Position numbers and translations under genes: made by a program. This document shows, piece after piece, positions 6,211 to 21,613 of a stretch of DNA of 21,842 nucleotides. Each line of letters begins with the position of its first letter. Position 1 is the stretch's first letter. The stretch is from positions 1 through 21,842 of the IMG/VR virus record IMGVR_UViG_3300020061_000028, one strand, 5' to 3'. Below the pieces are notes generated by a model. The model had not been told where the DNA came from. It saw nothing but the letters and a program-made list of their open reading frames with translations, and did no database searches. The stretch comes from a virus.

Positions 6211-7295
6211 TAAAACGCCTCCTCTGGCGGCTCTTCCACCAAGCCTAACTGGTCGTGATTGTCCTGATAATATAATTTAATTTTTTGTTTACGATGAGGT
6301 TGAGATACCTTACTTTTAAGAATGGTTACCTCAATTTCATGGCCTTTGTAAAGACCATTCTTAGCATCTTTGGGGAAACGCCAGCTGGGAATGGTTTTAA
6401 GCCCCAAAATAAGACTCGCTGCGTACACTGGCCCCATGCCCCCAGGGGTATATTTAACGGGAACATACGTTCCGATCATTTCTCTTTCCTGATTGATGAT
6501 AACTAACGCCGTGTCGCTGTTTTTAAGCTCCATAGGGACGATTCGCATCAGTTTGTTGACTATGAGTGCCTTTCCACCGATATTACGCGCAGCGGCCTCA
6601 TTAGCCTCCTCTGTGCGTGTCGTACAGCCCGCCAAAGAATCAAGAATAATAATGTCATACTTACCTGATTTAGCCGCTGGAATAATTTGATCGTAAATAT
6701 CTTCGATAAAGGCAGAATCGTTATACAAAGTAAAGCGTTTAGGATTTAGTTCTAGTTTGGCTAGCAATTCCGGGTTAAGTGACGCTTCTGAGTCAATGTA
6801 GAGCACTCGTTGCTCTTTTAGTCCACCAATCATATTAAGGGCTAAGGTAGTCTTACCCACTGCATATGGCCCCTGAATTTGTGTTACGCGCCCGCGCGGT
6901 ATCTTTTGAAAGGCATCTAGGTCTGGAATACCCGTAGTGATCCAGGCTACGCGTTGTAGACCCATTTTTTGAAAGGCTGCTAGATTTTTTTCGTAATCGT
7001 ATGGCTCCTCCTTTTGGGCAAGAGATTCATCAATTTTAGTAACCTTTGCTTTCACTTCACTAGCAAGCTCTACTGCTTCTTGGGCTGCACTCTTAGTCTC
7101 TACGGTAGGTACTTCAATTTCCTGAGGGGTGAACATGTCTCCACCATCCTTTACACGCTGTAAAAGATCATCCATTGTTTTATCAGAATCTTTTTTACGT
7201 GCATACGCTTTCTTACAGGCTTCACTACAGAACTTAGCTGTTTTACGTGTCGCCTCAAAGGGCTTACTATCGTTCAGACATTTTAGTACTACCAT
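6210..7295 (-). CDS. RecA-like recombinase with N-terminal cysteine cluster
   Basis: The 361-aa protein is a RecA-family ATPase. Walker A is GPYAVGKTT (142-150), Walker B is DIIILD (214-219), and YIDSEASLNPELL matches the RecA segment following Walker A. NQEREMIGTY followed by TPGGMGPVYAAS corresponds to the RecA DNA-binding/L2 area. Such proteins form filaments on single-stranded DNA for strand exchange and repair of replicating phage DNA. Unlike host RecA it has an extra N-terminal region of about 110 residues. This begins with C6 and FCSEAC (C23, C27), resembling a small zinc knuckle, and continues as a charged helix. The normal RecA C-terminal domain is absent. GGAAG precedes the ATG, and the start overlaps a 35-aa ORF. 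Its place in the structural arm, not with the replication genes, is unusual. Confidence 0.9.
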   Translation of the reverse strand: MVVLKCLNDSKPFEATRKTAKFCSEACKKAYARKKDSDKTMDDLLQRVKDGGDMFTPQEIEVPTVETKSAAQEAVELASEVKAKVTKIDESLAQKEEPYDYEKNLAAFQKMGLQRVAWITTGIPDLDAFQKIPRGRVTQIQGPYAVGKTTLALNMIGGLKEQRVLYIDSEASLNPELLAKLELNPKRFTLYNDSAFIEDIYDQIIPAAKSGKYDIIILDSLAGCTTRTEEANEAAARNIGGKALIVNKLMRIVPMELKNSDTALVIINQEREMIGTYVPVKYTPGGMGPVYAASLILGLKTIPSWRFPKDAKNGLYKGHEIEVTILKSKVSQPHRKQKIKLYYQDNHDQLGLVEEPPEEAF

Positions 7296-8757: not shown

Positions 8758-9138
8758 TTATAACACGCTCTCTATTGATATATTGAGGTTCTTATTCTCA
8801 CTACGCTGTACCGCTTTACCCCTTAGATGATCGGTAACGTACATTGTTGCACGTAGCGCAATAGCCTCATCTGAACTATTCACAGAGTTTCCCAACACCT
8901 GCATTGCATCCCTTCCTATCTGTTGTAACGCTTCTTCAATATAGTCCGGAGTAGCAAGCTCTTTAGAAACATTCAATATATAGTTAGCACGCATATGTGG
9001 AGCATCATATTCGTCCGTAGTATCGGTGATCGCGCGTGTCCCGTTACCACTCAACGTTACCTGTGCTTGATGTTTAGCTACGACTTGTGGTGTTACTTTG
9101 CGCCAAGTTCGTTTACTGTTTTTGTGTTTATAAGGCAT
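8758..9138 (-). CDS. small terminase-like or DNA-binding protein
   Basis: The 126-aa protein has a basic N-terminus (MPYKHKNSKRTWRKV) and a central segment ending around ANYILNVSKELATPDY. A helical C-terminal half includes EEALQQIGRDAMQVLGN and ALRATMYVTDHLRGKAVQRSE, then a short polar tail. The helix plus a GKxxQ turn resembles small phage proteins found near terminase genes, some annotated as small subunits or terminase-associated, so I offer that as a hypothesis. It is the first gene after the leftward promoter at 9287-9315 and is separated from the rest of the arm by 580 bp. The ribosome site (AGGTG, about 13 nt upstream) is poor. Confidence 0.7.
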   Translation of the reverse strand: MPYKHKNSKRTWRKVTPQVVAKHQAQVTLSGNGTRAITDTTDEYDAPHMRANYILNVSKELATPDYIEEALQQIGRDAMQVLGNSVNSSDEAIALRATMYVTDHLRGKAVQRSENKNLNISIESVL

Positions 9139-9286
9139 AAATTAATAATATCACCTATTACAAACTCAAGGAGTTGTGTATAGAAATCTGTTCTATTTAT
9201 GTTCTTATTTGGTGCGTAGTGTCCCGCTAAATACAAGGCTTGTGACGTGGTAAATTGTTCTGTTTATTCGTCTTATTCATACTCTT

Positions 9287-9315
9287 ATTATACATTACGA
9301 TGCGTATTTATTCAA
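9287..9315 (-). promoter_or_regulatory. main leftward sigma70-type promoter
   Basis: On the minus strand there is TTGAAT (9315-9310), a 17-bp spacer and a perfect TATAAT (9292-9287). Transcription would start near 9280 and read into the gene at 9138, giving a leader of about 140 nt. The inverted TAGCGGGACA copy (9220-9229) lies inside that leader. Confidence 0.65.
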
Positions 9316-9347
9316 TTATGTAACAGTGGTTAAGTGTTGTAGAAAAG

Positions 9348-10000
9348 TAAAAAGGTATTGCCATTCAGTTAATGGCATGTTTAAATGTGTACATCACCAA
9401 CACAGAGCGGTGACCACCTAAACAACTTGACACACATTCCGCTAAAACTACATAGATAGCAGCGCACCAAATAGAATAAGTGTCAAGTTGTTACGGTAAC
9501 ATTAACAATTCATACAGTTACATGGCGTATCAACGCCTAAGCCAACCCACGAGCGAATCGAAGCAGAGGACTACGATGGTACGCTAACAGGAATGTTGAT
9601 ACGTTACATGGACATATAAATGTGATCAATTCCATAGACGTATGGTGATGACTGGAGGTGTATTTTATATGTTCAACCATGGCTACATAAGCAGCTGGGA
9701 GGGAGCAACATGAAGTGTTGACCTTGTAGAACGAAGTACTCGCTTAGCGGCGAAGAAAAAGGGATTCAAGTGCGGTTACAGCTGTCAGACTTGCCCTCTG
9801 CCACATGCTTATGTAGACCAAAGCTAGAGCGTAGTAGTGCTGGTAGCAATTAAACTCACCGAAGACTGGTAAGTGCAGATACCTGAGAGGTGTCTAAAAG
9901 CGTACCGAAGGACGAAAGTCTTAGGGCGACATACCTGGTTATCTATTGCTACTAGCACCATACGCTCTAGCGAGCTAGTAGTAACGGCAATACGTTTTTA
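9348..10000 (+). ncRNA. candidate large structured non-coding RNA (GOLLD/ROOL size class)
   Basis: About 650 nt contain no credible coding frame but several long complementary pairs. They are 9421-9433 with 9480-9492 (13 bp, perfect); 9683-9693 with 9806-9816 (11 bp); 9823-9833 with 9961-9971 (11 bp); and 9837-9850 with 9945-9958 (14 bp, one G-U). Smaller hairpins are 9524-9537; 9599-9604 with 9638-9643; 9706-9720; 9767-9771 with 9789-9793; 9877-9895; and a GAAA tetraloop at 9914-9917. The wobble pairs are G-U on the + strand and would be C-A on the minus strand, so the RNA is rightward. The ends may close together: 9355-9362 with 9986-9993, then A9349-9353 with T9995-9999. Phages are known to carry very large ornate RNAs such as GOLLD and ROOL. 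I cannot say whether this is one of them or a new class. Confidence 0.8.
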
Positions 10001-10070
10001 AATCGTTGTTTGTTAAGTGCCACTAGCCCATGCGACTGTATGAAACACATAATAAAAGTAAGGAGTTATT

Positions 10071-10244
10071 ATGCCACTTAATCTAAACAACGAACGAGAC
10101 ATTGACACGTATGGTTTCTGGGATAGGCTAGTACTTATGTTCGTACCAACACATGTCTACAATGACAAAGAAGCATGGATGCATGTGTACTACAAAGAAT
10201 ATCAGGGTATGCTTGTGATCGTTTCACGGGAAAGGTACCGCTAA
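10071..10244 (+). CDS. 57-aa hypothetical protein
   Basis: This is the first gene of the rightward arm, with AGGAG 5 nt before the ATG. It begins MPLNLNNERDIDTYGF and ends VSRERYR. It contains several aromatic residues (WDRL, WMHVYYKEY) and no recognisable motif. It starts 71 nt after the structured RNA, so it may be read from the same transcript; no convincing promoter lies between them. Confidence 0.7.
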   Translation: MPLNLNNERDIDTYGFWDRLVLMFVPTHVYNDKEAWMHVYYKEYQGMLVIVSRERYR

Positions 10245-10245
10245 A

Positions 10246-20167: not shown

Positions 20168-21613
20168 ATGTCTTTCCTAGACGAACTACAAAAAGGGACA
20201 AATAAAACTCGTACTGAAAACGGTGCGGTCACAAACAAGAGTACGCTTAACGCAAACCTTGACTTTTTTTCATTAGCAGCAGCTATGCGCGGTAACGTTG
20301 CGGGCGCTGTAAAGTTATTTGAAAAGGCGTACCATACCGATCCACAGATTGCTATTCGCACATTATTTTACCTTCGTGATGTTCGTGGTGGTCAAGGTGA
20401 GCGTGATATTTTTCGTGCTGGTTTTAATAAACTAATTGACCTTAACGAAGAACACGCAATGAAAGTTGCTCGACATATTGCTGAGTATGGTCGCTGGGAT
20501 GATGTTGTCGAACTATTATCTACCAAACTCGGTAGTCTTGCTGTGGATATGATTCGTGAACAGTTTGCAAAAGATAGCCAAGACATGAATGATGGTAACT
20601 CTATTTCTCTCATGGCTAAGTGGCTACCTTCCGGAAATGCTTCCAGTAAAACCCGCCGCGAACAGGCTAAACTATTAGCTAAAGAACTTAAGCTCGTAAG
20701 TAATAGTGGCAACCTTACACCTTATCGTAAAGATGTTTCTCGCCTTCGCAAGTACATTAAACTGCTTGAACAGCAAATGTCTGCAAAACAGTGGAGTGAA
20801 ATTGACTACTCTAAACTTCCTTCGCAGGCGCACCGTAAGCACACCAAAGCTTTTAAGCGCAATGATGAAGCACGTTATACAGAGTTCCTTGGTAAAGTTG
20901 AAAAAGGCGAAGCAAAACTTAATGCTGGCACACTTTATACCTACGAAATTTTTGATGCTGTTAAGGAAGGCAATTTGCAAGCTGCAAATGCCATGTGGAA
21001 GAGTCTTCCAGACTTCACCAATGGAAATGATGCCTTAGTAGTTGCAGACGTTTCAGCTTCAATGCAAGGTCGCCCAATGAGCGTATCTGTATCACTTGCT
21101 CTATACTACGCTGAACATAATAAGGGAACATTTCATAATAAGTTTATGACTTTCTCCGCACAACCACAGCTTGTGGATGTGGTTGGTACAACTTTGGTTC
21201 AAAAACTACACATGATTGAGAATGCTCACTGGGATATGAACACCGACCTAGAAGCTGTATTTGCGACACTACTTAATGCAGCGGTAGCTTCAGGTGCTAA
21301 AGGTGACGATATGCCCAAGGTGATTTATATCATTTCGGACATGGAGTTTGACCGATGCGTGGTTGTCGATGAAAGCGTATTTAACCGTGCTAAAAACGCC
21401 TTTACAGTGAACGGGATGACACTACCACATGTAGTATTCTGGAACGTAGACGCACGCAACGAACAAGCGCCTGCAACTAAATTTGATAACAATGTCACTC
21501 TTATTTCCGGCCTTTCACAAAGCACGTTCCAGTATGTTGTTGGTGGCAAAAACCCTGAAGAGTTGATGCTCGAAGTGGTCAACAGCGAACGCTACGCACC
21601 TATTACAATTTAA
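20168..21613 (+). CDS. Ro60/TROVE-like vWA protein (DUF2828-type)
   Basis: The 481-aa protein has the two-part layout of Ro60 relatives: a helical-repeat ring in roughly residues 30-280 and a vWA domain after it. Family landmarks are RTLFYLRDVRGGQGERD (64-80), EYGRWDDVVELL, SLMAKWLPSGNASSKTRR and KQWSEIDYSKLPSQA. The vWA metal site is DVSAS (D294, S296, S298), with the threonine in MNTD. Ro60 binds Y RNA and misfolded small RNAs through the ring and works in RNA quality control with an exonuclease. DUF2828-type proteins share the fold, but few have been studied. It has its own promoter and a strong AAGGAG 7 nt before the ATG. Structured tandem repeats follow its stop directly. The role in the phage is unknown. 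Confidence 0.82.
   Translation: MSFLDELQKGTNKTRTENGAVTNKSTLNANLDFFSLAAAMRGNVAGAVKLFEKAYHTDPQIAIRTLFYLRDVRGGQGERDIFRAGFNKLIDLNEEHAMKVARHIAEYGRWDDVVELLSTKLGSLAVDMIREQFAKDSQDMNDGNSISLMAKWLPSGNASSKTRREQAKLLAKELKLVSNSGNLTPYRKDVSRLRKYIKLLEQQMSAKQWSEIDYSKLPSQAHRKHTKAFKRNDEARYTEFLGKVEKGEAKLNAGTLYTYEIFDAVKEGNLQAANAMWKSLPDFTNGNDALVVADVSASMQGRPMSVSVSLALYYAEHNKGTFHNKFMTFSAQPQLVDVVGTTLVQKLHMIENAHWDMNTDLEAVFATLLNAAVASGAKGDDMPKVIYIISDMEFDRCVVVDESVFNRAKNAFTVNGMTLPHVVFWNVDARNEQAPATKFDNNVTLISGLSQSTFQYVVGGKNPEELMLEVVNSERYAPITI

Follow-up and report, generated by a model that had tools for sequence, protein, structure and literature searches.

A candidate modular phage RNA in which a conserved stem clamp encloses exchangeable cargo

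The window analysed here, a stretch of 21,842 bases deposited as an IMG/VR virus record, derives from a tailed phage with two divergent gene arms. The left arm (- strand) encodes an SU10-type portal, a terminase and a RecA-like protein, while the right arm (+ strand) encodes a helicase, replication proteins and a Ro-like RNA-binding protein (20168-21613), which matched phrog_850 ('RNA-binding protein', E = 1e-143; DUF2828/DUF7788). The Ro-like protein was missing from the protein relatives of this phage and from the clamp-bearing phages (see below) that were searched. The arms are separated by a control region at the start of the early genes, which an initial annotation, made from the letters of the DNA, had described as a gene-free stretch holding a candidate large ornate phage RNA. 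The absence of genes was borne out, as no ORF of at least 60 amino acids was present within 9139-10245. No terminator was seen between the RNA and the 57-amino-acid gene that starts at 10071. The features of the region are listed in Table 1, and other loci are referred to by L numbers.

Table 1. Genes, signals and predicted helices in and around the control region of the window
Feature	Position	Strand	Sequence	Basis or remark
Divergent gene, left border	8758-9138	-		Probably small-terminase-subunit-like (position and alignment)
Candidate rightward promoter	9358-9386	+	TTGCCA (9358-9363), TTAAAT (9381-9386)	17-nt spacer; TGn precedes
First hairpin	9394-9413	+	TCACC/GGTGA	Fold; at presumed 5' end
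Helix 2	9421-9492	+		13 perfect pairs, 9421-9433/9480-9492; branched interior
Helix P, 5' strand	9509-9525	+	TTCATACAGTTACATGG	Inverted repeat I4; closes multi-helix junction
Helix 3	9526-9534/9595-9603	+		Fold; no counterpart in L044
Helix A	9612-9620/9664-9672 (element 9611-9673)	+	ACATATAAA/TTTATATGT	
Helix B	9683-9693/9806-9816	+		11 bp, then ACCA
Helix C (clamp), 5' arm	9823-9850	+	GCTAGAGCGTA-GTA-GTGCTGGTAGCAAT	Exact core search, covariation
Variable cargo within clamp	9851-9944	+		Contains hairpin with GAAA loop near 9909-9922; no homology to other cargos
Helix C (clamp), 3' arm	9945-9971	+	ATTGCTACTAGCAC-CA-TACGCTCTAGC	Partner-arm search
Helix D	9974-9979/10022-10027	+	GCTAGT/ACTAGC	MFE; no counterpart in L044
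Helix P, 3' strand	10028-10044	+	CCATGCGACTGTATGAA	Inverted repeat, MFE
First rightward gene 3' of RNA	10071-10244	+		57 aa; Shine-Dalgarno AAGGAG

The long helices named in the initial annotation were all recovered, namely a perfect helix of 13 bp (helix 2), two perfect helices of 11 bp (helix B and 9823-9833/9961-9971) and a 14-bp helix with a single G-U pair (9837-9850/9945-9958), as was a hairpin with a GNRA loop (here a GAAA tetraloop at about 9909-9922). Its contention that chance would produce almost none of these also held: dinucleotide shuffles (n = 1000) contained a mean of 0.046 perfect helices of at least 11 bp, and three such helices were reached in 0 of 1000. Helix P is part of the unconstrained minimum free energy (MFE) structure of 9506-10050, with helices 3, A, B, C and D inside it. 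Folding z-scores were -7.3 for the + strand and -6.2 for the - strand, and since both strands fold far better than shuffles, the choice of strand was left to comparative data. A structured phage RNA of approximately 650 nt, read from the + strand at about 9393-10044, is supported by these predicted structures and by the comparisons presented below.

Both limits of the RNA differ from those proposed earlier (9348 and 10000). At the 3' side the predicted RNA extends beyond 10000, to about 10044, while its 5' end is placed, by inference, near 9393 because 9358-9386 looks like a promoter and is matched in protein relatives of the phage, where TTGACA-N17-TANNNT promoters were found at the corresponding place (L006, L009, L011, L014 and L019). 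The candidate promoter itself is weak evidence, since it was not picked up by a consensus promoter scan. The segments 9348-9365 and 9983-10000, which had been suggested to pair as the two ends of the RNA, are indeed complementary (18 nt, 89%), but this pairing was rejected as probably lying outside the RNA because its 5' strand falls in the likely promoter. A hairpin at the same place as the first hairpin of the window also occurs in the protein relatives. In the five relatives named above, the rightward promoter is followed by a hairpin and then by a stem with a common CGNAACTC...AACTAATAGRRC motif, a predicted conserved leader RNA; an alignment did not show homology of the first 100 nt in the window to this leader motif. 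A perfect 11-bp inverted repeat was also observed at 9206-9216/9463-9473 (TATTTGGTGCG/CGCACCAAATA), one copy being located to the left of the presumed promoter and the other inside helix 2.

The most conserved part of the RNA is helix C, a stem of approximately 25 bp with a GUA/CA internal loop, here called the clamp. Its 5'-arm core, GCGTAGTAGTGCTGGTAG, was found exactly in 21 IMG/VR contigs, and the 3' arm was located downstream in all 21; over 17 nt it was unchanged in 18 contigs, carried a single mismatch in two and lacked one base in one. L047-L050, L054 and L056 came from further searches, with the 3' arm and with a less strict 5' arm, L112 was reached through a search for a tRNA-like element, and a genome collection contributed two MAG contigs (among them L051, which has the same module as L045). 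Besides the window, the clamp is thus known from 28 virus contigs of IMG/VR and from two MAG contigs. L054 carries a tandem clamp pair, and L049 two identical copies. The clamp-bearing contigs are mostly unrelated and have few genes in common with the window. Against cultured phages, the clamp arms produced chance-level matches only, and a blastn search with the region did not find a related RNA. The invariance of the 5' arm is partly a matter of ascertainment, as the 5' core served as search key, while that of the 3' arm is not due to search-key selection; part of the conservation of the clamp could also stem from exchange between phages instead of function.

Covariation, which the initial annotation had named as a check on the long helices, was analysed for helix C in 27 distinct modules, and double changes exceeded those in all shuffles. 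Altogether, 93% of the cells pair; 12 pairs and 57 cells were changed on both sides, relative to shuffle means of 5.6 and 19.2, respectively, and either value was reached in 0 of 500 shuffles. When the partner was slid by up to three columns as a control, at most 12 double-changed cells were obtained. Compensation was seen outside the core (TAGA/TCTA, TTGA/TCAA, TTAA/TTAA and TAAG/CTTA), in L025_2 (GTGC/GCAC to GCGC/GCGC) and as an extra C-G pair in L054_1, and one series runs from GCGTA/TACGC through the intermediate GCGTA/TGCGC (L025) to GCGCA/TGCGC (L112). The GUA/CA internal loop is nearly invariant, one G-U pair is kept in 26 of the 27 modules, and the arms of the window fit this definition (GUA/CA loop, compensated pairing) with zero mismatches. 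G-U pairs of the + strand are frequent across the modules, and the strand was therefore settled as +, in agreement with the rightward RNA first proposed. An RCCA sequence is kept in nearly all modules after the inner stem in the 3' arm, and the resulting ...CUAGC-RCCA-... resembles the end of a tRNA acceptor stem, a likeness that is suggestive only.

The cargo enclosed by the clamp varies in size from about 35 to 235 nt across modules. No 8-mer was common to at least four cargos, and most cargos fold no better than shuffles. The cargo of L047 contains a tRNA-like fold, and those of L042, L045 and L052 hold an ORF of about 60 amino acids; these three ORFs have a ribosome-binding site and fill the exact space between the clamp arms. 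L025 and L049, from related phages (36 protein clusters in common), have near-identical flanks and arms around unrelated cargos, L112, from a third related phage, has the same flanks around a third unrelated cargo, and L028 and L036 likewise have like flanks and differing cargos, while in L030 and L035 cargos that are 91% identical are set in different flanks. Cargo and frame are therefore inherited apart.

For helices P, A and B the comparison is with one other phage only, L044, with which the window phage had no protein in common by blastp. A search of IMG/VR with the A-B junction sequence as key returned L044 alone, so the junction is known from two phages. The junction matches between the two comprise 46 nt at 93%, 26 nt at 100% and 27 nt at 96% identity. 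Helix A (96% over 27 nt, with one compensatory pair) corresponds in L044 to the acceptor stem of a tRNA-like domain, the nine terminal pairs of helix B are identical, and the counterpart of helix P (GTACAGATACATGG/CCATGTATCTGTAC) likewise surrounds these two helices together with C. Compensatory double changes distinguish the two phages at three pairs of P and at one pair of A. The covariation of helix C and the presence of the same junction in a second phage support the original description of a large ornate phage RNA in the control region. When a closing helix was searched for in the other clamp loci, only L050 was clearly above control, and most clamp modules are not obviously located within a large junction. 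Linkers of the ACATGG type precede successive stems in the window (9520-9525, 9606-9611 and 9677-9681) and also in L025, L044, L049 and L117, and they also stand after the tRNA-like element; the one CCATG in helix P could have several of these linkers competing for it.

In L025, L040, L041, L044, L047, L049, L050, L056 and L112, the clamp has a tRNA-like domain near it or within it. A tRNA-Leu-like element adjoins the clamp in L040, L041, L044, L049 and L112, with simpler versions in L050 and L056; its D-arm is GUGGCGGAAUAGGUAGACGC and its T-arm is interrupted by an insert (GCAGGGUGACUAUACGAGU...CUCG(U/G)CAAAUCCCUGC). The T-arm, searched for as an exact 19-mer, was found in 44 IMG/VR stretches (L110-L149, L040, L041, L044 and L049), and Rfam did not flag the element in the ten loci tested; this element with its T-arm insert may be a separate phage RNA family. 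The tRNA-like assignment rests on the conserved D- and T-arm sequences and not on ARAGORN, whose calls near clamps at lowered thresholds (ps80) were not in excess. Within the window, neither a recognisable D- or T-arm of the element nor a canonical tRNA (ARAGORN, Rfam tRNA model) was found. One phage contig with the tRNA-like element, L134, also carries a Type-P5 twister ribozyme (6887-6940, - strand).

A phage-encoded partner of the clamp was searched for by blastp, a method that misses distant homologues. Because some of the records are incomplete, absence from one means little and absence from all means more. RNase III domains were found in none of 25 phage records and RNA ligase domains in three of 25, which makes a shared phage RNase III or RNA ligase unlikely, and beyond small groups no gene adjoining the clamp was common to the loci. 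As no shared phage protein was found, a host factor is inferred, and a partner supplied by many hosts would be the simplest explanation; the GC content of the phages ranges from 34 to 60%, which suggests diverse hosts.

The reading we prefer, with a rough probability of 0.45, is a structured RNA, variable in its cargo, with a conserved clamp that a likewise conserved host factor would dock on or process. The RNA of approximately 650 nt would either form the leader of the early operon that runs rightward or be cut from the transcript of that operon. The clamp would be recognised by its sequence, for docking or for processing, by a factor presumably present in most bacterial hosts. The first candidates would be tRNA/rRNA processing enzymes or the translation machinery, because tRNA-like domains often adjoin or occupy the clamp and the 3' arm has RCCA after the inner stem. 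The cargo would be the variable part, probably specific to phage or host, exchanged by recombination in the arms. Eight clamp loci are preceded by promoter-like sites, and most are followed by genes in the same orientation, which also speaks for this reading. This explanation and its rivals overlap. It is possible, if somewhat unlikely, that the clamp is mainly an RNA-processing signal. Either the long stem would be a substrate of host RNase III, or RNase P would cut at the inner stem, which resembles an acceptor stem and bears RCCA; leader or cargo would thereby be separated from the downstream mRNA, and the cargo itself would have no function. This would be consistent with the long stem and its asymmetric internal loop, the predicted co-transcription of downstream genes with few terminators between, the near-constant RCCA and the lack of more structure than in shuffles in most cargos. 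However, the outer helix runs on beyond RCCA, a continuation that does not favour an ordinary RNase P site, and both arms are under strict sequence identity, which to our knowledge neither RNase III nor RNase P needs to such a degree. A scaffold or cage like those of GOLLD and ROOL, of a different family and holding tRNAs or other molecules, appears unlikely: the absence of an Rfam match and the lack of an obvious large junction around most modules argue against it, although phage setting, size, multi-helix junction and the tRNA-like domains beside or inside the clamp would all fit.

We consider it improbable that the clamp acts on RNA polymerase as a nascent-RNA element of the HK022 putRNA kind, carrying early transcription through terminators, since only five intrinsic terminator-like sites were found in 73 kb downstream of clamps compared to 10 upstream, and since the clamp is often hundreds of nucleotides away from the start point; on the other hand, the element lies shortly after early promoters, and a target present in all hosts would account for its conservation even if no phage partner exists. 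Replacement of cargo between fixed arms, the tandem L054 pair and the two identical L049 copies could also be read as an inverted-repeat cassette at the DNA level, with the arms as recombination or insertion sites and the RNA fold as a by-product. There is little likelihood of this either, as the arms differ in a fixed way (GUA versus CA, and the G-U pair in 26 of 27), changes in one arm are matched in the other so that RNA pairing is kept, often by way of a G-U pair, and each module has the orientation of its operon. That the RNA is a Y RNA, with the phage's own Ro-like protein (20168-21613) as its binding partner, is largely refuted and extremely improbable: the window encodes the strong phrog_850 match, and an end stem and possible tRNA-like domains are Y-RNA traits, but phrog_850 occurred in none of 21 other clamp-bearing records. 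Returning to the docking or processing clamp with varying cargo, a more speculative and in our view doubtful extension is that clamp and cargo form an exchangeable RNA payload system, in which a stem recognised by a conserved host factor carries and processes the enclosed RNA or small ORF, and phages would swap payloads like genes; such payloads might, for example, be used against certain hosts or competitors, as decoys or as regulators. Should the preferred explanation be correct, unrelated phages would have in common an RNA stem more conserved than any of their shared genes, with freely changing contents; its 25 bp would offer a precise bait with which to find what a large phage RNA binds, a matter also raised by GOLLD and ROOL, and phages would have one more way to exchange RNA parts.

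The comparisons suggest that phages have a class of modular RNA not described so far. While large ornate RNAs are already known from phages, a clamp with exchangeable cargo is, as far as tested, new; no description of such a clamp was found in a non-exhaustive coverage of the literature. Rfam 15 was searched with the window at gathering thresholds and with 9100-10120 at E <= 10, and neither search gave anything meaningful in the window, so the classes considered in the initial annotation (GOLLD, ROOL, OLE and HEARO) have no covariance-model match here. Skipping-rope RNA (RF02924) has a conserved stem around a variable part. It has also been reported in phage sequence, and it possesses a pseudoknot (PMC7779021). 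None of 28 clamp-bearing or related virus records matched its model at E <= 10. In bacterial Y RNAs, the partners of Ro60/Rsr, the end stem carries a binding site that is conserved, and tRNA-like domains can occur. The predicted RNA resembles them in its stem formed from two ends, conserved internal loop, variable body and, in some cases, tRNA-like domains, but differs in that the other clamp-bearing phages are without a Ro-like gene. HK022 putRNA, which according to PMC9378689 acts without phage proteins, is likewise a structured element at the start of a phage early transcript, and for the clamp no phage protein partner was seen; the two differ in size and structure, and there is no sign of terminators to be read through. 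GOLLD and ROOL are found in phages or prophages near tRNA islands, with tRNAs in the GOLLD linker, and form cages (PMC12286853). Like them, the RNA predicted here is large and highly structured, is encoded in a phage genome and lies near or contains tRNA-like sequence; unlike them, it has as its core a short clamp whose insert varies, and compact clamp modules also occur without a large junction.
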